Below are positions 1,956 through 61,720 of a DNA stretch of 64,000 nt, in pieces (within the stretch, counting starts at the first letter, position 1; every line of letters begins with the position of its first letter). This DNA comes from Fodinibius saliphilus. Its GTDB lineage: Bacteria > Bacteroidota > Rhodothermia > Balneolales > Balneolaceae. The notes under the pieces were generated by a model, which saw only the letters and a program-made list of their open reading frames with translations, was not told the origin of the DNA and did no database searches. The position numbers and the translations under genes were made by a program. The stretch is from positions 496,001-560,000 of the forward strand of contig NZ_VAWF01000002.1 of assembly GCF_005869845.1 (NCBI RefSeq). The letters run 5' to 3'.

Positions 1956-3110
1956 TTAGGGTTTAATCTTAATGTCGATCTTCTCCGTAGGATCTTGCTC
2001 TTTGTTACGGATTGCCAACTGCTGAATCACATTGTTTGAAAGCTCAACAAATTTCTTGGCTGAGACCGAATCCAGCTCTTCATCGAGAACGATAGGCTTT
2101 CCTTCGTCACCACTCTCACGTACTTTTTGCTCTAATGGAATTTCTCCAAGGAAGTTTGTACCAATACGGTCAGCTAGATTGCGAGCCCCGTGTTTACCAA
2201 AGATATGGTATTTCTTTTCAGGCATATCTTCGGGTATAAAGTAAGCCATGTTTTCAACGATGCCCAGTACCGGCACATTCACTTTTTTAAACATCGCAAC
2301 TCCTTTTCGTGCATCGTCGAGTGCTACATCCTGTGGTGTAGAAACAATAACTGATCCCGTAAGTGGTACCGTTTGTACCAATGTTAACTGAATATCGCCG
2401 GTGCCGGGAGGTAGATCGAGAACCAAGTAGTCAAGTTCACCCCATTCTACCTCGTTCATAAACTGTTTAACAGCACTGGTCACCATGGGGCCCCGCCAGA
2501 TCATGGCCTGGTCGGGATCAACAAGAAGTCCCATAGAAAGAAAACGAACTCCATACTTTTCCATAGGGATAAGCTTCTTGCTCGTTGTAATATTGGGACG
2601 CTCGTGCGTGTCCATCATGGTTGGGATACTTGGTCCGTAAATATCGGTATCCAGCAGCCCCACTTTTGCTCCTGTTCGCGCCAAACCGCAAGCAAGGTTT
2701 ACCGCAACCGTAGATTTCCCAACCCCGCCTTTACCGGAAGCAACAGCGATAACATTTTTGACTCCTGAAAGAGCATCTGCCTCATCACTTTCATCCTCCT
2801 TCTTTTGACGATGTCCTTGTCCGGGAAACTCACCGTTATCTTCGTTATTTCGAAATTTAGAAATATTTACAGCAGTATTGATATCCAATACTGCGTCTTT
2901 ATCAACAAATTTATGGATAGCTTCCTTACACTTTTCTTTAAGGTCAGCTTCCAATTTTGCGTCTTTTTCGGGGAGGTCAATAGTAAATGTGATAAAGGTG
3001 TCTTGGACGATCAGATCCTCGATCATATCTAAAGAAACGAGGTCTTTATCCATCTGCGGGTGCATCACATGAGTAAGTGCTGTACGCACTTGTTGCTTAT
3101 TAATTGCCAT
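1956..3110 (-). CDS. mrp: Mrp/ApbC-type P-loop Fe-S cluster carrier
   Basis: From the ATG at 3110 the protein has 384 residues. An N-terminal MIP18/DUF59 domain (about 1-90) is followed by a charged linker and an Mrp/ParA-like ATPase with deviant Walker A GKGGVGKST (126-134), then DLPPGTGD and the Mrp signature GIVENMAYF. The family assembles or carries Fe-S clusters in the cytosol. The CxxC usually found just after ENMxYF is missing here (FIPEDMPEKKYHIFG), which from memory is normal for Bacteroidota homologues. The frame is open upstream to 3263, but those 51 residues look non-homologous, so I take MAINKQQVR as the start. Confidence 0.88.
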   Translation of the reverse strand: MAINKQQVRTALTHVMHPQMDKDLVSLDMIEDLIVQDTFITFTIDLPEKDAKLEADLKEKCKEAIHKFVDKDAVLDINTAVNISKFRNNEDNGEFPGQGHRQKKEDESDEADALSGVKNVIAVASGKGGVGKSTVAVNLACGLARTGAKVGLLDTDIYGPSIPTMMDTHERPNITTSKKLIPMEKYGVRFLSMGLLVDPDQAMIWRGPMVTSAVKQFMNEVEWGELDYLVLDLPPGTGDIQLTLVQTVPLTGSVIVSTPQDVALDDARKGVAMFKKVNVPVLGIVENMAYFIPEDMPEKKYHIFGKHGARNLADRIGTNFLGEIPLEQKVRESGDEGKPIVLDEELDSVSAKKFVELSNNVIQQLAIRNKEQDPTEKIDIKIKP

Positions 3111-3495
3111 CAGCTTAAAAATCTTGGTTGTTGCTTTATTGAATGAAGTCTTCAAAGATAAGGATTTAATACCAGATGCTAAATGTAGATTAGGGATAAA
3201 GAATTTGCCTAGAAAAGCTAGAGTAAAGCTTTGATTGCACTTTTTTTGAAGATATATTTGCAATAACAGCTGTCATAGGAGAAGCTAAGTCATTTCTATT
3301 CGATATTAGTAATGCCAACAATGAAAAGACATTCTCAATTCTATTGTTTAATCTGTATTTTGGCCCACTTATTTCTAAGACATAGCATTCTTTTCTAGTA
3401 AAGGATTTGTAGAAATCAGTCTTTCGAATATTATCAAATGTGCTGTAATAAAATACAGCTGGTAAAAGAAATTAAACGAAAAACAAAGATAAGCG
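3111..3495. other. Divergent intergenic region mrp / gcvT
   Basis: AT-rich spacer of 385 bp between the divergent mrp and gcvT starts. It should hold both promoters. I looked for a glycine riboswitch in front of gcvT and saw none, and no strong inverted repeat or tRNA. Confidence 0.5.
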
Positions 3496-4590
3496 ATGTT
3501 AACACGAACTCCTTTTTACGATCTTCATGAACAAGCCGGAGCAAAACTTATTAACTTTGGCGGATTTGAAATGCCCGTACAATATGACAGTATTCGCAAA
3601 GAACACAATGCGGTACGCGATCATGTGGGGATCTTTGATGTATCACATATGGGAGAGTTTTTTGTTTCCGGTGAAGAAGCAGAACAACTTATTCAATATG
3701 TAACTGTAAACGATGTATCAAAACTGGAGCCGGGCAAAGCGCAATATACTGCTATGTGTTACGAAGATGGTGGTATTGTTGATGATCTAATTGTATATAT
3801 GTTGGAAGAAAACAATTATATGCTTGTCGTAAATGCATCTAATATTGAAAAAGATTTCAACTGGATAAAAGAGCATAATACATTTGATGCGGAGCTTGAA
3901 AATAAGTCAGATGACTATTGTTTACTAGCTGTTCAAGGGCCCAACTCAGTGAAGACATTACAGAAAATCACAGATAATGATCTGGAAGGAATTGGATTTT
4001 ATCGTTTTGAGATTGGTAGTCTTGCAGGCTATGATGATGTGATCTTATCCGGAACGGGCTATACCGGTGAAAAAGGATTCGAACTGTATTTTAATAGAAA
4101 TGATGTTGATCCTGTTAAAATATGGAATGCTATTTTAGAGTCAGGACAGGAGTTTGATATTGAACCTTGCGGGCTCGGGGCGCGCGATACCCTGCGTCTG
4201 GAAAAAGGGTATGCCCTTTATGGTAATGATATCACCAAAGACACTCATCCGCTGGAAGCACGAATGGGATGGTTAACCAAGATAGATAAAGGTGACTTTA
4301 TCGGTCGTGATGCATTGAAAAAGGTAAAAGAGAATGGGTTGGAACGTAAACTGGTAGGGATTGTTATCGATGATAAGCGTTCTATTCCACGTAAGGGCTA
4401 TGCCATTTTAGATAGGGATGGTAATGAAATTGGTTTTGTGACAAGTGGGTCACGATCTATTACCCTTGGCAAAAATATTGGTATGGGATATGTGGCTATT
4501 GATCACGCCGAGGAAGAGAATACGGTTTTTGTTGAAATCAGAAACAAAAAAGCCGAAGCAACGGTAGTAAAACCCCCGTTTGTTAAATAG
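3496..4590 (+). CDS. gcvT: Glycine cleavage system T protein (aminomethyltransferase)
   Basis: A 364-residue protein of the usual GcvT length. It transfers the methylene group from aminomethyl-lipoyl H protein to tetrahydrofolate, releasing ammonia. Visible hallmarks are the start TPFYDLHEQAGAK, the strand FDVSHMGEF, GGIVDD (92-97, holding the conserved catalytic Asp), GYTGEKGFELY, GARDTLRLEKGYALYGND and the C-terminal barrel with GFVTSGSRS. The H and P proteins are not adjacent. It is followed after 59 bp by comB on the same strand. Confidence 0.95.
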   Translation: MLTRTPFYDLHEQAGAKLINFGGFEMPVQYDSIRKEHNAVRDHVGIFDVSHMGEFFVSGEEAEQLIQYVTVNDVSKLEPGKAQYTAMCYEDGGIVDDLIVYMLEENNYMLVVNASNIEKDFNWIKEHNTFDAELENKSDDYCLLAVQGPNSVKTLQKITDNDLEGIGFYRFEIGSLAGYDDVILSGTGYTGEKGFELYFNRNDVDPVKIWNAILESGQEFDIEPCGLGARDTLRLEKGYALYGNDITKDTHPLEARMGWLTKIDKGDFIGRDALKKVKENGLERKLVGIVIDDKRSIPRKGYAILDRDGNEIGFVTSGSRSITLGKNIGMGYVAIDHAEEENTVFVEIRNKKAEATVVKPPFVK

Positions 4591-4649
4591 AAGGCATATA
4601 GGTCTTATGGCCTGTAATTTTTTTAAAAGGTAATTGGTACGAGCTATTT

Positions 4650-5390
4650 ATGATTGATTCACTTGACGTTTTTTCATCTGCCCATTCGTTCCAGGAAGAA
4701 GACCTTCGGGATAAAGCGGTGGTAATGATTGATGTATTGCGAGCCAGCTCAACGATGGTTACAGCACTGCATCACGGTGCAAAAGGAGTTATCCCGGTTG
4801 GTGATATGGGTGATGCAAGTAAAATATCGCACAACCTTGACTCTGAGAGCTTTTTGATGAGTGGTGAAAAGAATGGGATAAAAATTGATGGGTACGATTT
4901 TACCAACTCCCCGCTGGAACATACGGGTGAAGAAATCGTTAATAAGACTGTAATATTAAATACAACTAACGGTACAAAGGCAATAAGACGTTCGGGGCAT
5001 GCTACTCAAATTATAGTAGGCGCCTTCCTGAATTTAAATACAATTGTTGATTACCTGCAGCAGATCGACGAAGAAGTAGTGTTGGTTTGTGCAGGCTGGC
5101 GTGGTCGACTCTCCTTTGAGGATTTACTTTGTGCTGGAAATATTATTTACGAACTTTGTTCGGGTAAGCTGCCTGTTAATGCACGCGATGCCGTAAAAGT
5201 GGCTTTTGGTCTTTATGAAAAATTTGCTGATGATATAGAAGGAAGTATTAAGTCATCAAATTACGCGGTGCGGTTGAAAGGTGTTGTCAGTGAAGAAGAT
5301 ATCTCTTATTGCTGTCAACGTAGTAAACTGCAGGTGCTTCCGATATTAAACGAAGGAATTATTTCAGATTTCAATGACAAAGAAAAATAG
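4650..5390 (+). CDS. comB: 2-phosphosulfolactate phosphatase family protein (ComB)
   Basis: A 246-residue protein with ComB signatures: VVMIDVLRASSTMVTAL near residues 24-40, MSGEKNGIKIDGYDFTNSP and ILNTTNGTKAI, where an acidic residue and a Ser/Thr-rich phosphate-binding region recur. ComB dephosphorylates 2-phosphosulfolactate to sulfolactate (Mg-dependent) in coenzyme M synthesis. It also occurs in many non-methanogens, where its product probably feeds other sulfonates. No comA or comC is visible here. The last 17 bp overlap the start of ftsK, so the two are probably translated from one message. Confidence 0.87.
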   Translation: MIDSLDVFSSAHSFQEEDLRDKAVVMIDVLRASSTMVTALHHGAKGVIPVGDMGDASKISHNLDSESFLMSGEKNGIKIDGYDFTNSPLEHTGEEIVNKTVILNTTNGTKAIRRSGHATQIIVGAFLNLNTIVDYLQQIDEEVVLVCAGWRGRLSFEDLLCAGNIIYELCSGKLPVNARDAVKVAFGLYEKFADDIEGSIKSSNYAVRLKGVVSEEDISYCCQRSKLQVLPILNEGIISDFNDKEK

Positions 5391-7908
5391 TTCGGGAAAT
5401 TTTTTGGGAGGTCTTTCAGAATCCCGGAAGATGGAAATATTGGGGATTTTGACCATGGCTGTAGGTGGTCTGATAGGGCTTAGTATCATTAGTTATGATC
5501 CGGCAGACTTCACACTTATACAATCTCTTTCGAGTGATAGCCTATTTATGCTTGATCAGGGACCTGCCCTGCGTATTCAAAACTGGTTAGGCGTTATCGG
5601 CGCATATCTGGCCCACTTTTTTGTATATCTCCTTTTTGGATATATGAGTATTATTGTGCCCCTTATTATTTTGGGATATGGGTGGTTTATCTTTCGTGAT
5701 CGCGATATTACCCAGATGCTGTGGCCCACCGTATATGGCATATGGAGTATGGTTTTGCTATCAAGCATACTCGGATGGTTTAATATCGAATATGATTGGT
5801 ATTCTTCGGTATGGAATGGTTCTGCCGGTATTGCTATATCGCGGATTCTTCAGAATATAACCGGTATTGGCTCCATTATTATCCTTTCCGTATTGTTGCT
5901 TACTACGCTATTGGCACTGTTGGATCGTGACCTGCAACATACTGTTGAGCGATTCAAAGAATGGATTGCTGGTATTAAAGAATCTTTTGCAGACTGGAAG
6001 GAACATAGACAAGCCAAGAAAGAAGCTAAACAGGAAAAGAAGAAGCAGAAAGCAAAAGAAAAAGAGATTAAGCGACAACGCAGAGCTGAAAAAAGGAGCA
6101 AAACAAATTCCACTTCTTCAAAGTCAGAAACTAATTCCACTCCTGCTAAACAAGAAGAGGAGGAGTCTAAGCCTAAATCTATTGATGAAATTGTAGAACA
6201 GTCGCAGCAACAAGATCTTGAACGTATGCGGCGTGAGGAGGAAGAGGTTCAGTCTCTTGACCAACGTCCGCGGGCTGATATCGAGAAAAAGAAAATTGCA
6301 GAAGACGAAGAGGATGATGTAGATATTTCGGTATACGTCGGAGAAGGTGACGAGCAGGCCGATGAGAAAGAACTAGATAAACAGAATAAGGACAAAGCAA
6401 AGGAGGTACCTCGTGTCAAGTATAAGTTTCCAACGATAGACTTGCTTGACTCTCCGCCCAATGAAGGTAACGAGGTTGACCTAGAGGAGATAAAAGAGAA
6501 TAAGCGTATTATTCTTGATAAGCTGAAACGCCACAATATTGAAATTCGAAGTATTAATGCTATTGTGGGCCCCACGGTTACACTTTATGAGTTGGACCCG
6601 GCTCCGGATGTAAAGATTAGTAAGATTGAAAGCTATGCCAATGACCTTAAGATGGCGACCGCGGCCAAAGGTTTGCGCATTATGGCACCCATACCGGGAC
6701 GTTCTGCGGTCGGTATTGAAGTGCCGAATGGCGCCCGAGAGACTGTATTTATAAAGTCTGTTATCAACACAAAGAAATTTGTTGAAAGCGATCATGAACT
6801 GCCCCTGGCTTTTGGTAAGACCATTGAAAATGAAGTATTCATGGTAGACCTTACTAAGATGCCTCACTTGTTGATTGCAGGGGCTACAGGCTCTGGTAAA
6901 ACGGTGGGTATGAATACAATCATTACCTGTTTGCTCTACAAGTGTCATCCGGATGATCTGAAATTTGTGATGATTGATCCTAAGAAAATTGAGCTTTCCC
7001 TATTCCAGAAGATAGAAGATCATTTTCTGGCCACACTTCCCGGGGCAGAAGAGCCTATTATTACAGAAACTTCTGCCGCCCAAGAAACGCTTGAAAGCCT
7101 TACTAAAGAGATGGATGAGCGCTATGATCTTCTTAAAGATGGGATGGTTCGTGATATACGAGCTTATAATAAAAAGTTTGATAACGGAGAGCTTAATGAA
7201 GAGGAAGGGCACCGGCACTTACCATATATCGTAGTACTTATAGATGAGCTGGCTGATTTGATGATGACGGCCGGGAAACAGATTGAAGAACCTATTGCTC
7301 GTCTGGCACAGCTGGCCCGGGCTGTTGGTATACATTTGGTAGTGGCGACGCAACGTCCGTCGGTAAATGTCATTACCGGTACTATAAAAGCGAACTTCCC
7401 GGGACGTATTGCCTATCAAGTAGCCTCTAAGGTAGACTCCAGAACAATTCTGGATACCGGAGGGGCCGACCAGCTGATTGGACGGGGGGATATGCTATTT
7501 ACCAATGGAGGCGGTATGACTCGTATACAAAATGCTTTTGTTTCTACGGAAGAGGTCGAAGAGATTACCGACTTTATTGGAAAACAAAAAGGATATAATA
7601 AAAAGTACGAATTGCCTGTTTTACAAGACGAGTCTTCTTCAAGTGGCGATATTCCCGATCCGCTTGAAGATATCGATGAACTTTTTGAGGCCGCAGCTAA
7701 AGTTATTGTTTTGCATCAACAGGGGTCCGTATCTCTGTTGCAGCGTAAGCTTAAGATTGGATATAATCGGGCCGGGCGTATTGTGGACCAGTTATTCAAC
7801 GCAGGTGTGGTAGGTCCTTACCAAGGGAGTACGGCGCGCGATGTATTGGTTGAAGATGAAGAAGAATTAGAACAGTTATTAGATGATCTGGACGAATTTG
7901 AACGGTAA
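5374..7908 (+). CDS. ftsK: DNA translocase FtsK/SpoIIIE
   Basis: An 844-residue divisome DNA pump. The N-terminal quarter has four or five membrane segments (about 22-42, 75-120, 125-145, 160-185), followed by a Lys/Glu-rich linker (about 195-330). The motor has Walker A GATGSGKT (503-510) and Walker B VVLIDELADLMM, and the C-terminal gamma winged helix (about 770-835, GSVSLLQRKLKIGYNRAGRIVDQL) reads polar chromosomal motifs. It clears and resolves chromosomes at the septum. It overlaps comB by 17 bp upstream and the lolA-like gene by 26 bp downstream, so the block looks like one operon. Confidence 0.96.
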   Translation: MTKKNSSGNFLGGLSESRKMEILGILTMAVGGLIGLSIISYDPADFTLIQSLSSDSLFMLDQGPALRIQNWLGVIGAYLAHFFVYLLFGYMSIIVPLIILGYGWFIFRDRDITQMLWPTVYGIWSMVLLSSILGWFNIEYDWYSSVWNGSAGIAISRILQNITGIGSIIILSVLLLTTLLALLDRDLQHTVERFKEWIAGIKESFADWKEHRQAKKEAKQEKKKQKAKEKEIKRQRRAEKRSKTNSTSSKSETNSTPAKQEEEESKPKSIDEIVEQSQQQDLERMRREEEEVQSLDQRPRADIEKKKIAEDEEDDVDISVYVGEGDEQADEKELDKQNKDKAKEVPRVKYKFPTIDLLDSPPNEGNEVDLEEIKENKRIILDKLKRHNIEIRSINAIVGPTVTLYELDPAPDVKISKIESYANDLKMATAAKGLRIMAPIPGRSAVGIEVPNGARETVFIKSVINTKKFVESDHELPLAFGKTIENEVFMVDLTKMPHLLIAGATGSGKTVGMNTIITCLLYKCHPDDLKFVMIDPKKIELSLFQKIEDHFLATLPGAEEPIITETSAAQETLESLTKEMDERYDLLKDGMVRDIRAYNKKFDNGELNEEEGHRHLPYIVVLIDELADLMMTAGKQIEEPIARLAQLARAVGIHLVVATQRPSVNVITGTIKANFPGRIAYQVASKVDSRTILDTGGADQLIGRGDMLFTNGGGMTRIQNAFVSTEEVEEITDFIGKQKGYNKKYELPVLQDESSSSGDIPDPLEDIDELFEAAAKVIVLHQQGSVSLLQRKLKIGYNRAGRIVDQLFNAGVVGPYQGSTARDVLVEDEEELEQLLDDLDEFER

Positions 7909-8518
7909 TATATTTCGATTCTTATTTGTAGTATGTTTTTTAACAGGATGTTCATTAACACTTAAAGCGCAAACCACTCATTTGGATAAGCTTAAACAAA
8001 AATTTGAGCAAGGTGATGTTTTTAAAGCGGCTTTTAGTCACGAATCCATAGATTCATATACGCAGGATACGGTATCAAGTCGCGGTAAAATATGGGTTGG
8101 TCAGCAACGGTATAAAATTAGTGGTAATAACCAGTTGGTAGTGGTTGACGGTCAAGTATCGATGGTGTATGATGACAGGAGAAACAGGGTGATTATAAGT
8201 AAATATGAACCCAAAGAAGACGATTTCGCTCCCTCTCGTATACTAAACGGCATTGATTCTACCTTTGCTATTAAAACTCAAGAAAAACAAGACAACCAGA
8301 TATATATCCGTTTGGCTTCCGACGATCCTTTTGCGATATACAAAAAAGTAGAAATTTATCTTTCGTTAGCACTTGTCCCTCAAAAGATTCGTGCAGTTGA
8401 TCCTGTTGATAATATTATTACAACTTGTTTTCGAAATGGGAAATTTATTGAAGCTCAAGAGGGGCTTTTCGTGTTGGATTATCCCCAGGGAGCAGAAGTT
8501 GTTGATATGCGTAACTAG
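7883..8518 (+). CDS. LolA-like outer-membrane lipoprotein carrier
   Basis: About 211 residues with a signal peptide (FRFLFVVCFLTGCSLTLKAQ) and a LolA/LolB-type half-barrel: HLDKLKQKFEQGDVFKAAFSHE, SSRGKIWVGQQRYKISGNNQLVVVDGQVSMVYD and NRVIISKYE. LolA shuttles lipoproteins across the periplasm. Sequence similarity in this family is low, so the role is inferred from the fold pattern and its place after ftsK, the usual lolA position in many genomes. The annotated ATG lies inside ftsK; a TTG at 7898 is a possible alternative start. The internal Cys does not make a convincing lipobox. Confidence 0.8.
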   Translation: MIWTNLNGNIFRFLFVVCFLTGCSLTLKAQTTHLDKLKQKFEQGDVFKAAFSHESIDSYTQDTVSSRGKIWVGQQRYKISGNNQLVVVDGQVSMVYDDRRNRVIISKYEPKEDDFAPSRILNGIDSTFAIKTQEKQDNQIYIRLASDDPFAIYKKVEIYLSLALVPQKIRAVDPVDNIITTCFRNGKFIEAQEGLFVLDYPQGAEVVDMRN

Positions 8519-8536: not shown

Positions 8537-9568
8537 ATGTATAAACGACTACTAAAAATAGGGCTCGCACTAATGTTGGGAGCTCTATTCATGTGGCTGG
8601 CATTTCGAAATGTTCGACTTCAGGAAGTTTGGGAATATTCAAAAGATATCCAGTTTGGATGGATTATCCCTTTCGGTATTTCTGCATTATGCAGTCATGT
8701 CTTTAGAGCTGAGCGGTGGCGCCTGCTTATTGAGCACGACAAAAAAGAACTCGATCGGGTTACATTAATATCCGGGGTGTTGGTGGGGTATCTGATGAAT
8801 ATTGTCGGACCACGCCTTGGTGAGGTTTCCCGACCGGTTTATGTCGGTAAGAAAGAAGGCCTGAGTACTTCGAAGCTGATGGGGACTATTGTGCTGGAGC
8901 GGATAATTGATGTAGTTGTTATGGGCATTTTGATGGTGGTTGTATCGGTCTATTTGATTTCAGATCTAAACCTGCTTAAGCAGATTTTTGGAGACCAAAC
9001 GGTCAACTTTTTAACCAATGAATCTAGCCTAATCACTTATGGGTGGGTTGCTCTTTTTGTGTTGGTCATGATTGGCCTTGCTTATATTGGTCTAAAGTTG
9101 ATACTCTATTTAGGTACAAAGTTCGAAGTTCTTCAGGAATGGATCGACCGGGCTAAAAATGTACTTATTATGTTTAAGGATGGGGTGTTGTCGGCTCGGC
9201 AAGTGCAACGGTGGTGGCTTTTTATAACTTTTACAGTTCTTATCTGGTTTTGTTATACCTTAATGACCTATATTCCTTTCTGGATGTTTGACATGCAGGA
9301 AATATATGATCTCGATATGATCGACGCTCTGGTAATAACAGTAATTTCTGCTATTGGTATTGCCATACCCTCACCGGGAGGTATTGGGACGTACCATTAC
9401 TTTGTGAAACAATCGTTATTGGTACTTTTTGCAGTGCCCGCAGTAACAGGAGTTGCTTATGCTACTATAACACATGCAGGAATGGTGATTTTTGTGGCTA
9501 GTATTACTCCGATTTTCCTGTTTATTGACAAGTGGCGGTCGACTAAAGCCGGTGAACCGGTATTTTAA
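8537..9568 (+). CDS. Flippase-like / lysylphosphatidylglycerol synthase TM-region protein (UPF0104)
   Basis: A 343-residue integral membrane protein with about eight hydrophobic segments. It shows the family pattern: GALFMWLAFRNV at the first helix, RAERWRLLI, NIVGPRLGEVSRPVYVGKKEG (55-85 residues in from the start) and the late helix AIGIAIPSPGGIGTYHYF. UPF0104 proteins are distant relatives of the MprF flippase domain and are thought to move lipids or lipid-linked sugars. The substrate is unknown. It lies 18 bp after the lolA-like gene, which fits an envelope-lipid role. Confidence 0.85.
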   Translation: MYKRLLKIGLALMLGALFMWLAFRNVRLQEVWEYSKDIQFGWIIPFGISALCSHVFRAERWRLLIEHDKKELDRVTLISGVLVGYLMNIVGPRLGEVSRPVYVGKKEGLSTSKLMGTIVLERIIDVVVMGILMVVVSVYLISDLNLLKQIFGDQTVNFLTNESSLITYGWVALFVLVMIGLAYIGLKLILYLGTKFEVLQEWIDRAKNVLIMFKDGVLSARQVQRWWLFITFTVLIWFCYTLMTYIPFWMFDMQEIYDLDMIDALVITVISAIGIAIPSPGGIGTYHYFVKQSLLVLFAVPAVTGVAYATITHAGMVIFVASITPIFLFIDKWRSTKAGEPVF

Positions 9569-9710
9569 CAATGTTCTATCCTTTTTTACGTTTATTGAAA
9601 CAGATAGCAGCGGCTTTGGTATAAAACAGACAATTGAGGCATTAATCGTTGCAAAAAATTTGTACCTTAACACCGGATTTTCTTTGTATAAAATCATGCA
9701 TCAAAATTTC

Positions 9711-11432
9711 ATGAAACGCTCTTTTGTATCGGTATTTGTATTATTACTTACGTTAATAGCTGCAACAGCTGTTGAAGCTCAAGATCAGCAAGCCGAAGAG
9801 GGATCGCTCCTACCCGAAATTGACCCGCAAGATATTGAAATACGAAGTCAGTTTAAGGCAAGATTTCCGGGGTTACGTCGGCAGCCAATTCTCGGTTTTG
9901 ATCCTACTCCTCGGGTTTACCAGGTAGATCCTAACCGTACTCCTTTTATGGAGTCAGCCGAGCAGGTAGTAGCAGATATGCCGGTAAGCAGTCTTTCGCG
10001 ACCAGAAGCTCCGGGCTACGTACCCCTTCATTATTCTTCTGATATCAATTTATTTACTAGGGCTGGGATTGGCAGTTATATGAGTCCCGAAGTTGATTTT
10101 TGGGGGGTCAGCAGGCTTACCTCAAAAAGTTATATCGGTGGTGATCTAGACTATAGTTCATCGTCAGGTCATCTCGATATTCAAGAAAGTAGCTTCAGAT
10201 TTATGAATGCCACGGGGGAATATGTTACGAAATTTAGCAGTAAAGATCGGTTGGCATTACAGCTTGGCGTTGAAAATAGTTTTAACCACATGCCTAATGT
10301 GCAGTGGTTGGCAGGGGCAGATAATGGCCGAAAAAAATATGGTGGTTTTCAGCTGGATGCTGATTTTGAGCACCTTAATAACTCCATTGCAGGGTGGCAG
10401 TTGCAGGCCAATATGCAGTATTATAAGATTGAGCTTACCGATGCCGGAAGCCAATATTCAGGATCTAGCCAGGAGGAGGTCTATAATGGTACAATTGCCA
10501 AGCGCTGGACGGGAGCCCATGTTAATGAAACCTTTACGGTAAAAGTTAATGCGAAGACTGGGAAATATGATAATAACTCTACGAACCCTCAAAATTGGGT
10601 AACAGCGCAGGCAGGTGTGGTATATGATCGACTCTTTAATTACAGTACAAAGGTCCATGCTGATGCCAGTGTATATTATGTGCAGGATGGATTTACCGAT
10701 GGGATATATATCGGTCCCTCAGTGACAATTAAGCACCCATTTATGGAGATGTTGACGGTAACAATAAAGGCTGGAGCTGAACCATATCTGAATACCATAC
10801 AGGAATTACATTCTGCCAATAGATTCTTAGCAGTAAATAATAACCTTCGTCATTCCTACGAAATAAATGGTTCATTTGAGGCAGAATTCGAGTACAATGA
10901 AATAGGATCGGTGAACTTTGGTTTCCAATACAAGAATATGAGCGATCACCCTATCTTTATACGCCAAGACGGTGGAAGGACGTTAGCCGGGGGGACATCG
11001 TTATATGATTTTTATAGAATAACCTATCTTGATGCGTATAAAATTCGAGCCTTTATTGGGGCGAGTCATCAAATTGTGCCGGAACAACTCTGGGTTGATG
11101 CAAGATTTTATATGCAGTCTCCACAACTTGAGGGAGGAGACCGTATCCCTTATGAAGAGAAACTAGGTTTTAAATCAGGGATACATTTTCGTCCAGTTGA
11201 CCAGTTGTCAATAGAAGTTTGGGGCGATTATGTAGGATCACGGCAAACATTCCAAACGGATGAGAAATTAAGTGGCTACTTTATGCTGGGAAGTCGTGTT
11301 GATTATCAGATTACTGATCGTTTTGGTGCTTATGTTAAATTAGTAAATTTACTTAACCAAGAATATGAAGTTTGGCAGGGGTATGCCGAGCGTGCTTTTC
11401 AGGCGTATGGCGGTATAACAGTAAAACTATAA
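9711..11432 (+). CDS. Outer-membrane beta-barrel protein, TonB-receptor-like without plug
   Basis: From ATG 9711 the protein has 573 residues (ATG 9696 adds five). A signal peptide (KRSFVSVFVLLLTLIAATAVEAQ) is followed by about 120 residues with repeated Pro/Arg motifs, then alternating amphipathic strands. It ends YVKLVNLLNQEYEVWQGYAERAFQAYGGITVKL, the usual closing strands of TonB-dependent receptors. No plug domain or TonB box is visible and the length is short for a receptor. It may be a plug-less porin or assembly factor. The longer upstream frame overlaps the previous gene and has no signal sequence at its start, so I rejected it. It is followed directly by the HU gene. Confidence 0.75.
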   Translation: MKRSFVSVFVLLLTLIAATAVEAQDQQAEEGSLLPEIDPQDIEIRSQFKARFPGLRRQPILGFDPTPRVYQVDPNRTPFMESAEQVVADMPVSSLSRPEAPGYVPLHYSSDINLFTRAGIGSYMSPEVDFWGVSRLTSKSYIGGDLDYSSSSGHLDIQESSFRFMNATGEYVTKFSSKDRLALQLGVENSFNHMPNVQWLAGADNGRKKYGGFQLDADFEHLNNSIAGWQLQANMQYYKIELTDAGSQYSGSSQEEVYNGTIAKRWTGAHVNETFTVKVNAKTGKYDNNSTNPQNWVTAQAGVVYDRLFNYSTKVHADASVYYVQDGFTDGIYIGPSVTIKHPFMEMLTVTIKAGAEPYLNTIQELHSANRFLAVNNNLRHSYEINGSFEAEFEYNEIGSVNFGFQYKNMSDHPIFIRQDGGRTLAGGTSLYDFYRITYLDAYKIRAFIGASHQIVPEQLWVDARFYMQSPQLEGGDRIPYEEKLGFKSGIHFRPVDQLSIEVWGDYVGSRQTFQTDEKLSGYFMLGSRVDYQITDRFGAYVKLVNLLNQEYEVWQGYAERAFQAYGGITVKL

Positions 11433-11633
11433 ATGGTGATGGATAACGAATTTATAAAAGCATTTTCTGAAGTAGTACGCGAAGAAGTGATTCGCAAGAA
11501 TGAGGTACAGGTTGACGGTATCGGTTCTTTCCAATTCGAGCACAGAAAACAATTTCAAAAACAACACGAAAACGGAAGAGTAGTAATGATGCCGCCCAAA
11601 GATACCATCAACTTTGAGCCGGAAAATAATTAG
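11433..11633 (+). CDS. Small HU/IHF-like DNA-binding protein
   Basis: 66 residues: FIKAFSEVVREEVIRKNEVQVDGIGSFQFEHRKQFQKQHENGRVVMMPPKDTINFEP. The segment VQVDGIGSF followed by a basic arm and PPKDTINF is the HU fold core (beta-saddle, basic arm, last strand), although the N-terminal helices are shorter than in HU (about 90 residues). It starts directly after the stop of the barrel gene (ATG at 11433 or 11439) and ends 5 bp before the HU-SPOR gene, so it is probably co-translated with it. It may pair with the HU domain of that protein. Confidence 0.75.
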   Translation: MVMDNEFIKAFSEVVREEVIRKNEVQVDGIGSFQFEHRKQFQKQHENGRVVMMPPKDTINFEPENN

Positions 11634-11638
11634 GAAAC

Positions 11639-12721
11639 ATGATCATCGATAAAGCACAATTGATAGAATTGCTCGTTGAAAAAACTGGTCTTGCTCAAGA
11701 TCAGGTTGAAGGGCAGCTTTCACAATTAATCGAGCGTATCCAAGAAGCGGCCGAAGAAGGAAAGGCTTTTGAGATCGAAAATTTTGGTACTTTCGGTATG
11801 GAGGATGGGGTGCTACAGTTTACGCCAGCCGATAGGTTAGAAACGGAGATCAACAATAAGTATGCCGGTATGAAGCCTATAGAATTGATAGGTGCTTTTA
11901 AAGAACCGGAAGAGGGGGAGATACCTGATATTTCCGAGATGGCTCCCGAACAAAGTGAGAAAGCGTGGTCTTTTGACAAAGACAACGCAGAAGAAGAGAA
12001 ACAACAGAAAGAAACGGTTCGCGAGCCGGAGGAAACAGAGATTGAGGAGGTCCCGGAGCAGAAACCCGCAATGGAAGAAGCCCAGGAAGAGTTTGAAGAG
12101 TTGGTTAATGCCGGGGAAAAAGAGTCTCAAAAATCTTCTCAAGGTTCGGAGAAAAAAACGGAAGAGAAGATTGTGGAAGAAAAGAAAGAAAAAGACCCCA
12201 TTGGTCGTCTCTTAGTAGCTGCTGTAGTTATACTCGTAGTGGGCATAGGTAGCGTTTTAATGTACGATATGGGAATATTCCAAGAGTTGGGACGTAATAA
12301 TACCCGTTCCCATTCTGAAATAAGTGACAATACATTGCCTGCTGAAAAAACAAAAGTAGAACAACCTGTGATTAGTTCGGAACCTGAGAACAAAGATCTT
12401 GTATCTAATGATGAGGCTGCTGGGGAAGCGCCACAGGATACTCAGCAAGGGTATGGATTGAAAGGCAACTTCAATCCCTCTGTAGATAATGGATATATGA
12501 TTGTGGTACACTCCCTACAAAATAAGCAGCAAGCAGAGGCCAACAAACAACAGTTGGTAGAGAAAGGCTATCGAACATCCATTAATGAGGCAAATGTTAA
12601 GGGAACCCTCTATTATCGGGTAGGCATAGGGCAGTTTGAATCGATCGAAAATGCCCGGAAGGCAATTGAGAGAATTCCCGAGCCATATCGAAGCAATAAC
12701 TTTATCAAACGAATTCAATAA
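11639..12721 (+). CDS. HU-domain / transmembrane / SPOR-domain protein
   Basis: 360 residues in four parts. Residues 1-85 are an HU/IHF-like domain (IDKAQLIELLVEKTGLAQDQVEGQL, then FEIENFGTF). Residues 90-185 are a highly acidic, probably disordered segment. Residues 190-210 form one transmembrane helix (LLVAAVVILVVGIGSVLMYDM). Residues 284-360 are a SPOR domain (YMIVVHSLQNKQQAEANKQQL to NNFIKRIQ), which in other proteins binds denuded glycan at the septum. The topology puts HU in the cytoplasm and SPOR in the periplasm. From memory, HU-CCDC81/SPOR fusions are known in Bacteroidetes. It sits between ftsK and exbB. Confidence 0.88.
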   Translation: MIIDKAQLIELLVEKTGLAQDQVEGQLSQLIERIQEAAEEGKAFEIENFGTFGMEDGVLQFTPADRLETEINNKYAGMKPIELIGAFKEPEEGEIPDISEMAPEQSEKAWSFDKDNAEEEKQQKETVREPEETEIEEVPEQKPAMEEAQEEFEELVNAGEKESQKSSQGSEKKTEEKIVEEKKEKDPIGRLLVAAVVILVVGIGSVLMYDMGIFQELGRNNTRSHSEISDNTLPAEKTKVEQPVISSEPENKDLVSNDEAAGEAPQDTQQGYGLKGNFNPSVDNGYMIVVHSLQNKQQAEANKQQLVEKGYRTSINEANVKGTLYYRVGIGQFESIENARKAIERIPEPYRSNNFIKRIQ

Positions 12722-12744: not shown

Positions 12745-13485
12745 ATGCAAGCGTTATTTTTTATTCTGATACAATCTCAGTCAGACACCACAACAGCTGC
12801 TGACACTTTAGGTTTAGCTGCTCAAGAAGAAAGCATGTCGATGTTTGAGCTACTCGCGGAAGGTGGAGTACTGATGATACCACTTTTTATTTTATCATTG
12901 GTAGCAATTTTTGTAATTGCTGAGCGCTGGCGTTCACTGAATAATTCCCGTATAGAAGTGGATGGTTTTTTACGCACGGTTGGCAGTATGCTTAAGGATG
13001 GCGATCGCCAGCGTGCCCTTACCTATTGTGATGGTATTGATAAACCCTTGGCCCGTATTCTGAAAGCCGGTATCCGGAGGTTGGGTCGTTCTATCCGTGA
13101 TATCGAAGATGCTATTCATAATGCCGGGAAAAAAGAGATCTATCACTTAGAAAAACGAATGAACTGGTTGGCTACTATTGCCGGTGTTGCCCCTCTCATT
13201 GGTTTTACCGGAACGGTTACAGGGATGATTGAGGCCTTTATGGATATCCAGTCGCTACAGGGTAACGTAAATCCCAGCGTGTTGGCCGGTGGTATCTGGG
13301 AAGCACTTATTACTACCGCAACTGGGTTAATTGTTGGAATTATTGCATATGGATTTTATAACTTCTTGCTCGGTAAAATAAATAGGACGGTTCATGAGTT
13401 AGAAAATGCTTCGGCCGATTTTATTGATATGCTGCAGGCCCCTTCAAAAAATGAAAATAACAAAGAGCGACAGAAGGTAGGATAA
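12745..13485 (+). CDS. exbB: MotA/TolQ/ExbB proton-channel family protein
   Basis: 246 residues. Membrane segments lie near 37-57, about 140-165 and about 180-205. The family core ATIAGVAPLIGFTGTVTGMIEAF is followed by GGIWEALITTATGLIVGIIAYGFYN, with the conserved Gly and Thr residues that line the proton path. With the next two genes it forms a complete inner-membrane energy transducer. ExbB or TolQ cannot be told apart by sequence alone; the tonB-like third gene favours ExbB. The stop codon overlaps the exbD start (TAATG). Confidence 0.92.
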   Translation: MQALFFILIQSQSDTTTAADTLGLAAQEESMSMFELLAEGGVLMIPLFILSLVAIFVIAERWRSLNNSRIEVDGFLRTVGSMLKDGDRQRALTYCDGIDKPLARILKAGIRRLGRSIRDIEDAIHNAGKKEIYHLEKRMNWLATIAGVAPLIGFTGTVTGMIEAFMDIQSLQGNVNPSVLAGGIWEALITTATGLIVGIIAYGFYNFLLGKINRTVHELENASADFIDMLQAPSKNENNKERQKVG

Positions 13486-13895
13486 TGGATTTTAGAGAAG
13501 ATAATGATCGCATGGAGCCGTTGACGTTGTTTTCACAGTCGTCATTAACGGATATTGTACTATTGCTACTTATTTTCTTTCTATTGACATCCTCCTTTGT
13601 TACCAACTTTGGCATCAAAGTTGATATTCCTAAAGCTGAAACTGGAGCACAAACTGAATCTCAGATGATTACGGTGGCAGTAACAAAAGAAGGTGAGTTT
13701 TTTGTTAATGGAGAACTTACAAGCAGTGGTATGCTTGCTTCGGCTTTGCGCAAAGAAAAGTCAGATAAAGGACAAAGTACCCTTGTATTACGAGCCGATA
13801 AAGAAGCAATAATCGATAATGCTGTACGGGTAATGAATATAGCAAAAGCATTAGAGCTCAAAATTGTGATGGCTACCGAACAGGCTTCGAGGTAA
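13485..13895 (+). CDS. exbD: ExbD/TolR family protein
   Basis: 136 residues: a short cytoplasmic N-terminus, one transmembrane helix carrying the essential Asp23 (LTDIVLLLLIFFLLTSSF, the position equivalent to Asp25 of E. coli ExbD), and a periplasmic domain. It couples proton flow through the ExbB-like channel to the TonB-like partner. It overlaps exbB by one base and is followed by tonB after 18 bp. Confidence 0.93.
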   Translation: MDFREDNDRMEPLTLFSQSSLTDIVLLLLIFFLLTSSFVTNFGIKVDIPKAETGAQTESQMITVAVTKEGEFFVNGELTSSGMLASALRKEKSDKGQSTLVLRADKEAIIDNAVRVMNIAKALELKIVMATEQASR

Positions 13896-13913: not shown

Positions 13914-14735
13914 ATGAAGCTTCCAAAATTTAAAGAAGAAGATCAATTTGCCCTAACTGTAACAGGTGGGGTGCATATTATTCTGGTATTATTTTTTCTC
14001 TTTTATACTTTTTCCATAGAAGCTAATGTGCGTCCTTCCTTCATTGAGGTTGAATTTGGGGAGTTCCAGTCGGGTACGCCAACCCAAAACGCCGAACAAA
14101 AAGCGGAACAGGTAGAGACTCGTCCTAATCCTTCAGAGACAGAACCTGAAGAACCTGAGCCCGAAACCCCCGATCCCGTTGAAGAGCAAAAGTCAACTAC
14201 TGAAGAAACAACTAAACCGGTGGATGTTCCTGACCAAAAGGAGGAGGTGCAAGAAGAAGAGGTTAAAACCCCGGAAACGGATAAGGTAGATCCACAAAAA
14301 GAAACTTCTACAGAAGAAAAAGAAGAAGTGACCGTTCCGCCTAAAACTGAAAAAGATGAAGTACAACAAGAAGGAGTGAAGAGGAGCGGAGATAAAGAAG
14401 GGAATACCGGTGAACGGAACACAGACCAAGGGACCGGTAATGAACAGGAGAAGTCGGCTCCCTATGAATTGAAGTGGGAGGGAGATATCGAACGAAACCC
14501 GATGGTACAGCCGCTCCCTACTAATACAACGGATGCAGAGGCTACCATAACCATACGGTTTGAGGTCAAGCCTGATGGTACTGTTGGGCGTATCATTCCA
14601 CTCAAGAAGATGAATCCGGAATTGGAACGTGAAGTGATGAAAACCTTGCGTAGCTGGCGCTTTTCAAAACTACCATCCGGGGTACCGCAGCAATCTCAGT
14701 GGGGAACCATTACTTTCCGCTTTGTTTTAGAATAA
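13914..14735 (+). CDS. tonB: TonB-family energy transducer
   Basis: 273 residues. The N-terminus has a transmembrane helix (ALTVTGGVHIILVLFFLFYTFSI, about 14-36). A long Glu/Pro/Lys-rich linker (about 50-175) would span the periplasm. The C-terminus (ATITIRFEVKPDGTVGRIIPLKK to WGTITFRFVLE) has the TonB_C pattern, with VxPDGxV and a terminal strand. It would transmit ExbBD energy to an outer-membrane protein. No true TonB-dependent receptor with a plug is in the window, although a barrel lies 2.5 kb upstream. Confidence 0.9.
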   Translation: MKLPKFKEEDQFALTVTGGVHIILVLFFLFYTFSIEANVRPSFIEVEFGEFQSGTPTQNAEQKAEQVETRPNPSETEPEEPEPETPDPVEEQKSTTEETTKPVDVPDQKEEVQEEEVKTPETDKVDPQKETSTEEKEEVTVPPKTEKDEVQQEGVKRSGDKEGNTGERNTDQGTGNEQEKSAPYELKWEGDIERNPMVQPLPTNTTDAEATITIRFEVKPDGTVGRIIPLKKMNPELEREVMKTLRSWRFSKLPSGVPQQSQWGTITFRFVLE

Positions 14736-38701: not shown

Positions 38702-39562
38702 ATGTCTTATACAAGGCTGGCATTATATAAAATACTGGTTGTTTTCTTATTAATAGGTTGTGGCGGCCCACCGGAGAAAAATCCATTGCTGCAAGAGGCC
38801 AGTAGTGAGTATCAAAAGGCTGAAAATGACTCCCTTATTGTAACTAAGGCACCGGTAGCATTAAAAGAGGCCGAGGAGGCCTTAGAGCAGAGTCGAGAGT
38901 TTTGGAAAGAAGGCGCTGATAAAGAATTGATAGAACATCACGCCTATATTTCAAAACAAAAAGTATTTATAGCCCGAGAAACTGCTGAACTGAATGCTGC
39001 TCAGGATGAAGTGAAGCGAGCCGAGGCTGAGCGGCAGCGAGTATTGATCAAAGCACGTAAGGCTGAAGCCAGGGCAGCAGAGCATCGCGCAGAAGAAGCG
39101 TTATCACGTGCACAAAAGGCGCAGAAACGGGCCGAACAGCTTGCCAACAGGGTCAGTGAGCTAGAGGCACAGCGTACAGAACGTGGCTTGGTATTAACAT
39201 TGGGAGATGTCCTTTTTGATTTCGATAAAGCGACATTGAAACCTGGTGGGGAACGGGCTGCTAATAATCTTGCCCAGTTTCTAAAAGAATATCCTGAAAG
39301 AAATGTGATGATCGAGGGATTTACCGATATCGTTGGTTCAGCAGATTATAATAAGAAATTATCAAGGAGAAGAGCTAATGCTGTCAAACGGGAGCTCATT
39401 GGTCAGGGTATTAGTGCTACACGCATTCAAATACGGGGATATGGTGAAAAATATCCTGTAGCATCGAATGAAACAGAAGCAGGACGTCAGCAAAATCGTC
39501 GGGTTGAAGTCATCATTTCTGATAAGAACGGTACTATCGATGAGCGATCATTAGCAAACTGA
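38702..39562 (+). CDS. OmpA-family lipoprotein with DUF4398-like helical stalk
   Basis: 286 residues. Signal peptide with lipobox LIGC (residues 17-20), then a helical stalk (about 40-160, DELNAAQDEVKRAEAERQRV type repeats, ARAAEHRAEEALSRAQKAQKRAEQ). The C-terminal OmpA domain (about 165-280) has VLFDFDKATLKPGGERAANNLAQFL, GFTDIVGSADYNKKLSRRRANAVKREL and GYGEKYPVASN, the peptidoglycan-binding fold with its conserved Asp and Arg. It would tie the outer membrane to the wall. The upstream neighbour by 4 bp is the smaller DUF4398 lipoprotein. Confidence 0.9.
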   Translation: MSYTRLALYKILVVFLLIGCGGPPEKNPLLQEASSEYQKAENDSLIVTKAPVALKEAEEALEQSREFWKEGADKELIEHHAYISKQKVFIARETAELNAAQDEVKRAEAERQRVLIKARKAEARAAEHRAEEALSRAQKAQKRAEQLANRVSELEAQRTERGLVLTLGDVLFDFDKATLKPGGERAANNLAQFLKEYPERNVMIEGFTDIVGSADYNKKLSRRRANAVKRELIGQGISATRIQIRGYGEKYPVASNETEAGRQQNRRVEVIISDKNGTIDERSLAN

Positions 39563-61298: not shown

Positions 61299-61341
61299 GA
61301 GGATATAATATTGCCACTTATAAAAGTGTTATATTTAAGTA

Positions 61342-61705
61342 GGATGGTTGGGTAATCGCTCATCTGCGCCTTACTTTAGGCGTAAGTGAGAGGAAAGTCC
61401 GAACACCAACGAGTACTGTGCTTCCTAACGGGAAGATCCGGCTAACCGGTTAGCTAGTGCCACAGAAAACAGACTACCCTGCCTTGTGCTGGGAAAAGGT
61501 GAAAAGGTGAGGTAAGGGCTCACCGCTCCGGTGGTAACATTCGGAGGCTTGGTAAACCTCACAGGGTGCAAGCTCACGCAGACCGTTGTGCAACTCGTCA
61601 CAATGCGGTCGGGTGGAGTGCTTGAGCCCCGAAGCAATTCGGGGACCAGATAAATGATTACCATCTGCCTGCGGGCAGTTACAGAATTCGGCTTACAGAC
61701 TATCC
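61342..61705 (+). ncRNA. rnpB: RNase P RNA (type A)
   Basis: Hallmarks in order: GAGGAAAGTCCG near 61389-61400 (the P4-proximal core), ACAGAAAACAGACTACC in the middle, AAGGTGAAAAGGTG(AGG)TAAGGGCTCACC, GGTAACAT, GGTAAACCT and the conserved 3' end ACAGAATTCGGCTTACAG. P1 is formed by GGATGGTT at the start and GACTATCC at the end. About 364 nt. It processes pre-tRNA 5' ends. A terminator follows after 16 bp. Confidence 0.95.
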
Positions 61706-61720
61706 TTTCATTAATATCAG

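Follow-up and report, generated by a model that had tools for sequence, protein, structure and literature searches.

Several described systems share parts of the locus considered in this study. The closest are the tandem proteins of other Bacteroidota, in which two HU-like domains of one chain (Pfam families HU-CCDC81_bac_1, PF18174, and HU-CCDC81_bac_2, PF18175) are followed by a membrane helix and a C-terminal SPOR domain. A tandem pair of HU domains is also present in eukaryotic CCDC81, as the Pfam family names euk_1 and euk_2 indicate; we know of no SPOR domain or membrane helix in these eukaryotic proteins. The nucleoid proteins HU and IHF belong to the same sequence family and fold, and a C-terminal SPOR domain is carried by FtsN, DamX and RlpA, of which FtsN and DamX have a single membrane helix. 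The Tol-Pal system is another partial parallel. The idea of an HU/SPOR tether seems, by the title of a 2017 paper, to be already in print, and the study reportedly covers HU-SPOR proteins. In that title, new clades of HU are connected with the partitioning of chromosomes (Cell Cycle, doi 10.1080/15384101.2017.1315494). Literature searches found no open paper on the gene pair described below or its operon, nothing relevant on HU plus SPOR, and none on Tol-Pal together with TonB and cell division in Bacteroidota.

The window (the whole stretch of 64,000 nucleotides of Fodinibius saliphilus that was analysed) contains two adjacent genes, A and B, which on sequence comparison are a split form of the tandem HU-HU-TM-SPOR protein (TM, membrane helix). 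In the tandem proteins both HU domains belong to one chain, whereas in the window the first is a separate gene of 66 amino acids; the membrane helix and the C-terminal SPOR domain are found in B likewise.

Architecture and linkage of the gene pair

The preliminary description of this DNA had proposed a 66-residue HU-only gene preceding a 360-residue protein with an HU domain, an acidic linker, one membrane helix and a SPOR domain, and both proposals were confirmed by the reading frames, Pfam and hydropathy. Gene A (11433..11633) and gene B (11639..12721) lie on the plus strand with a gap of 5 bp. The product of A matches the HU family PF00216 with E 4.5e-7 at profile positions 23-83 of 90; it lacks helix 1 and the C-terminal helix of HU and retains the beta-arm. 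A similar extent (from positions 17-26 to 80-87) is seen in 26 of the 28 genomes scanned, the other two being those in which A and B are fused, whereas the best HU match in each of the 28 genomes begins at profile position 1. Conserved within the A rows are His37, Gln40 and the proline pair PP54-55.

The HU domain of B (residues 1-84, 11639..11890, delimited by Pfam and profile comparison) matches PF00216 with E 2.7e-7 at positions 2-52 and has no beta-arm. The match spans positions 2-4 to 51-57 in 18 of the 28 genomes, and in the others the HU domain of B falls short of E 0.001. Hydropathy places the membrane helix at residues 191-209 (12209..12265), and the SPOR domain occupies residues 284-347 (12488..12679) with a Pfam E-value of 2e-10 and 41.3 bits against a cut-off of 21. 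Exactly one membrane segment after residue 60 is present in 55 of 56 B homologues, the exception (G026) being truncated by a contig end. The charges flanking this helix predict an internal N-terminus in 45 of 55 homologues, and the linker contains on average 33% Asp and Glu (n = 55).

Of 58 genomes that cover the genus, the family and the order (Balneolales) and include the own genome, 57 contain a match to B; the loci compared are those of the other 56, together with a second B copy of G055. In 52 of the 56 primary loci B is immediately preceded by a separate gene A, identified by blastp in 51 and from its reading frame in G025. With mechanically chosen starts, the distance between the two genes in those 51 loci ranges from -47 to +9 bp. 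At two more loci (G037 and G043) A and B form one protein in the same syntenic place; in G040, G045 and G048, which belong to the same genus, they are split. The two other loci are G026, interrupted by the contig end, and G046, which has a single hybrid HU domain and no separate A. Matches to A at E <= 0.1 occur in 56 of the 58 genomes, a figure that includes weak matches elsewhere (G046) and hence is not a count of adjacency. Similarly, the presence of some match in 60 of 60 genomes of the class mixes HU-only with SPOR-only matches and so gives no number for the full protein. The conservation of B in 57 genomes and of A beside it in 52 loci rules out that the two are chance open reading frames. 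Moreover, since A adjoins B in 52 loci and is fused to it in two, the suggestion that the small HU protein is the partner of B is well supported; it is also backed by the profile comparisons below, in which A and B each find their best match in a different HU domain of the tandem protein.

Two further variants were seen. The G046 protein (L068, 5699-6694) is an HU-TM-SPOR protein with a body like that of the first HU domain and a tail like that of the second, and thus looks hybrid. The second copy in G055 (L070, minus strand, 2949-5039 in the reverse-complement count) is a fused HU-HU-TM-SPOR protein of 697 amino acids, and no other neighbours of it were found on its 6.9-kb contig.

The relation to tandem proteins was assessed with 22 such proteins from other Bacteroidota, obtained in a phylum search of 25 loci from which three, of the class and with no HU domain before the match, were left out. 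In hhalign comparisons the A profile is closest to the first tandem HU domain, HU1 (4.3e-9, versus 4.6e-8 for canonical HU, 1.3e-7 for B and 4.4e-6 for the second domain, HU2), a modest margin of only about tenfold over ordinary HU. The B profile has its best match in HU2 (2e-12, versus 6.5e-10 for canonical HU and 3.7e-4 for HU1). The PP motif follows the same division, being present in 55 of 56 A rows, 21 of 22 tandem HU1 domains and none of 28 canonical HU proteins, although the motif occurs in one further HU of the own genome. By profile, A appears to be the counterpart of HU-CCDC81_bac_1 and B is that of HU-CCDC81_bac_2, with the same domains in the same order, an armless second HU and a first HU whose arm lacks the Asn-Pro (NP) tip. 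In Pfam, A in the window has no match to PF18174 at E <= 1, and a class relative scores 0.007, under the cut-off; PF18175 matches B in the window with E 1.6e-4, under its cut-off, and exceeds the cut-off in two genomes of the same family (G017 and G014) and in a class relative (L146). Neither family is matched at E <= 1 by the two fusions that occur naturally in the order, and the euk_1 and euk_2 matches on the window pair are under cut-off. Both tandem proteins scanned exceed the cut-offs for bac_1 and bac_2, and one of them has a SPOR domain just below its cut-off.

The structure predicted for residues 1-160 of L166, a natural fusion, has a mean pLDDT of 62, with HU2 well modelled and the beta part of HU1 below 50, and Foldseek returned no match to it at E <= 0.001. 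In structural alignment the model matches single-chain IHF (Z 6.0, 110 residues aligned, rmsd 4.6) and a chain of the Tetrahymena doublet microtubule, 8v3l_A (Z 6.7, 104 aligned, rmsd 4.3), and its HU2 matches E. coli HU (Z 6.0, 69 aligned, rmsd 2.7); entries other than HU/IHF and microtubule chains start at Z 3.5, and Z-scores below 8 are not strong evidence by themselves. We infer that the Tetrahymena chain is CCDC81b, for which a role as a microtubule inner protein of that doublet microtubule has been proposed.

Conserved neighbours of the pair

The preliminary description had placed the pair in an ftsK region followed by exbB-exbD-tonB. The downstream trio was verified: genes for an ExbB/TolQ-family proton channel subunit (12745..13485), an ExbD/TolR-family subunit (13485..13895) and a TonB-like protein (13914..14735) follow B on the same, plus strand. 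FtsK (5374..7908) ends 3.5 kb upstream, and between it and A lie genes, also on the plus strand, for a LolA-like protein (7883..8518) and a membrane protein of the LPG_synthase_TM family (8537..9568), both assigned by Pfam, and for a 615-residue outer-membrane barrel (omp; 9585..11432).

The barrel and the downstream genes are the most constant neighbours. The order and strand of omp-B-exbB-exbD-tonB are kept in 54 of the 56 loci, both misses being at contig ends, while the full set of nine, ftsK to tonB, stands in order in 42; the other 14 are mostly cut by contig ends or have no detected A. At four loci (G014, G020, G032 and G034) ftsK, lolA and lpg are missing from the sequence that precedes B, which is 5.8 kb or longer, the weak ftsK match of G034 being B itself. 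In the class outside the order, omp-A-B was found at eight of eight loci fetched, exbB-exbD at seven and tonB, by profile, at two; these loci were chosen by a PF18175 match, and six listed class genomes outside the order that have no such match were left out. Among 12 loci of other Bacteroidota, which hold tandem proteins, the barrel and ExbB-ExbD genes flank the tandem gene as they flank A-B at four (three of them with tonB), the barrel alone is present at one, and none of these neighbours at seven. No ftsK match was obtained by profile at any of the 20 fetched loci of the class and phylum; this absence, together with that at the four order loci, rules out FtsK partnership as a general feature.

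The barrel has the fold of a TonB-dependent receptor. A model built from nine sequences (mean pLDDT 70) contains 22 predicted strands and matches BtuB1, a TonB-dependent transporter, with a Foldseek E-value of 3.1e-18; no solved relative of the barrel was found by sequence at the thresholds used. This fold, together with the position of the barrel gene beside the ExbB-ExbD-TonB cluster, could indicate a dedicated TonB uptake system, in which the barrel would transport, ExbBD-TonB would energise it, and the HU-TM-SPOR pair would be an accessory that anchors or places the system on peptidoglycan. On the other hand, no plug domain was matched by Pfam in three barrels, and residues 59-152 fall below pLDDT 50 in the nine-sequence model. 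The HU-SPOR protein also occurs without barrel, Exb or TonB neighbours at the seven Bacteroidota loci, and an uptake accessory therefore seems doubtful to us. The same seven loci imply that the ExbBD-TonB motor is not obligatory; no Exb genes were seen beside Flavobacteriia-type loci, whose neighbours were read by eye, and this too limits the idea of a motor.

In the same barrel gene, the region that follows the signal region (window 9807-9995; LLPxIDPQDIEIR...PILGF...) forms a dense invariant run in nine Balneolales copies. It is a possible docking segment.

With the Tol-Pal system the locus has in common a possible division role and ExbB and ExbD proteins that lean toward TolQ and TolR: the TolQ/TolR models outscore the ExbB/ExbD models on both, with all scores below the equivalog cut-offs. 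In contrast to Tol-Pal, a barrel and a SPOR protein are present, and the set of TolQ, TolR, TolB and Pal was not recovered. TolB_N was found in none of 28 genomes of the order, while three control genomes, one of them a Bacteroides, match it. The own genome has three Pal-like matches, all under cut-off; an OmpA/Pal-like domain, likewise under the Pal cut-off, is encoded in the window at 39209-39514. Elsewhere in the window (61340-61711) there is an RNase P RNA of bacterial class A.

Contact residues of the HU and SPOR domains

A chromosome-to-septum tether was the main suggestion of the preliminary description: an HU heterodimer of A and B would hold nucleoid DNA, and the SPOR domain would hold denuded septal glycan. 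For the DNA side, the yardstick was the single best ordinary HU protein of each of 28 genomes, and the positions compared are taken to be those at which HU touches DNA. The NP tip was part of the motif by which the canonical set was first chosen; a second choice, by match position alone, gave the same 28 of 28. In canonical HU, ten columns from position 45 onward are basic in all 28 proteins. In A, basic residues remain at R45 in 8 of 56 rows (with Asp or Glu in 30), at K51 in 22, R55 in 16, R58 in 9 and R61 in 22; at K54 they remain in only two, His being found in the other 54, and further along the domain at K64 in 2 of 56, K80 in 1 of 56, K83 in 12 of 40 and K86 in 1 of 20. Columns 37 and 38 of A are basic in 9 and 23 of 56 rows. 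The NP arm tip, kept in 28 of 28 canonical proteins, is present in one of 56 A rows, and B has no arm at all.

The charges follow a similar course. The mean net charge of the arm is +3.5 in canonical HU (n = 28) and +1.8 in A (n = 52, four of the 56 rows being dropped as they lack the motif), and that of the matching stretch of B is -1.9 (n = 43 of 58). Over the whole domain A averages +0.2 (n = 56) and canonical HU +0.7, with -3 for A in the window, whereas the first 84 residues of B average -8.4 (n = 53). The HU1 arm of the tandem proteins resembles that of A, with no NP tip in 22 proteins and a mean net charge of +1.5. In the own genome, the NP tip is retained by two HU proteins of full length whose arms carry a net charge of only +1 and 0.

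DNA tethering thus receives no support from the sequences, A and B having lost most of the positions with which ordinary HU grips DNA; the loss of basic contact residues in both HU domains, named in the preliminary description as a refutation of the tether, is largely seen at the positions that ordinary HU keeps, though A still has a mildly basic arm. Because the conserved basic columns and the NP tip are lost in A, and the arm in B, canonical DNA bending by either protein is unlikely, another mode of binding being possible. The tether retains some favourable points, namely the HU ancestry of both domains, an overall charge of A near that of ordinary HU, the presence of the SPOR domain, the sharing of the cluster with FtsK in most loci of the order, and the title of the 2017 paper. 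Nevertheless, with the strongly acidic HU domain of B and the lack of FtsK at the 20 class and phylum loci and at four order loci, we regard a tether as unlikely. Compared with HU/IHF as a whole, A lacks helix 1, B lacks the arm and is membrane-anchored, and most of the conserved basic positions have gone.

Another pair of like plan lies outside the window, on contig C1 of the own genome (L181, 4840-5133 and 5126-6661). A 97-residue HU gene overlaps there with a gene for a 511-residue protein that consists of an HU domain, an acidic linker, a membrane helix and a LysM-like part, these last three being assigned by eye, with no Pfam LysM match at E <= 0.1. In each protein the HU domain matches almost the full length of PF00216 and retains the NP tip, though with arm charges of only +1 and 0, and this pair is a candidate DNA-to-wall tether.

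For the wall side, the proposed binding to septal glycan is plausible in part. The SPOR domain of B is clear, and the Arg of the glycan site is retained in 54 of 57 copies, as in FtsN, DamX and RlpA; unlike these proteins, B has replaced the glycan-site Gln in all 57 (Val in 52, Ile in four and Ser in one) and carries an HU domain predicted to be cytoplasmic. Both residues (Gln, RlpA Q270 and FtsN Q251; Arg, R309 and R285) were placed by motif rather than by structure, and no solved relative of the SPOR domain was found by sequence at the thresholds used. According to PMC6895207, the Gln of RlpA and FtsN contacts glycan, and contacts with the protein backbone dominate SPOR-glycan binding. Because of this stress on the backbone, glycan binding by the SPOR domain of B is still possible, although the missing Gln weakens the case. 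The own genome encodes five SPOR proteins; three of them retain the Gln, while B and one other lack it.

SPOR domains were also noticed in other settings. A secretin-like protein of the own genome, recognized by eye, has a terminal SPOR domain (L004, 1489-3204, minus strand). A Balneolaceae protein of about 750 residues (L170, 1494-3770) combines a PilN-like domain with a C-terminal SPOR domain just below cut-off, and similar frames are present in L173, L176 and L179.

Possible role of the pair

The reading we favour, and consider somewhat probable, is that A and B form a transmembrane adaptor of an envelope machine that includes the apparently plugless barrel and ExbB-ExbD-TonB. A and the HU domain of B would pair in the cytoplasm as an HU-like heterodimer, and B is predicted to cross the inner membrane once and to put its SPOR domain into the periplasm, where it may sense or grip the wall. 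The pair would act as an adaptor joined to the barrel and to the ExbB-ExbD-TonB motor, probably at or near the wall of the division site. As for its cytoplasmic ligand, the HU pair would most likely bind a protein, or else DNA weakly, outside the canonical bending mode; a protein ligand would be in keeping with the erosion of the DNA surface and with the acidity of B. That A is instead an independent nucleoid protein, standing beside B by chance, is very improbable: its HU homology by itself and its only tenfold nearness to tandem HU1 over ordinary HU would suit such a protein, but the adjacency in 52 loci and the fusion in two argue against it, and A lacks the helix 1 with which the best HU matches of all 28 genomes begin.

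The adaptor reading has a bolder extension. The apparently plugless barrel, ExbB-ExbD-TonB and the split HU/TM/SPOR adaptor might together be an undescribed envelope-spanning machine of a Bacteroidota group, a stand-in for Tol-Pal that would link division or chromosome cues in the cytoplasm to constriction of the outer membrane. We offer this as a long shot, with a probability well below that of the adaptor itself.

The occurrence of the two HU-like domains as a split pair and as natural fusions is of importance as independent evidence that they act jointly, and the split pair provides a two-component system amenable to purification and testing. The residue losses shift the question from the mode of DNA binding to the ligand that a pair of HU folds takes, and this question applies equally to CCDC81 in the cilia of eukaryotic cells. 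Finally, the conservation of the barrel and of ExbBD-TonB points to a function in the envelope, and a substitute for Tol-Pal could be tested in these bacteria, where TolB was not found.
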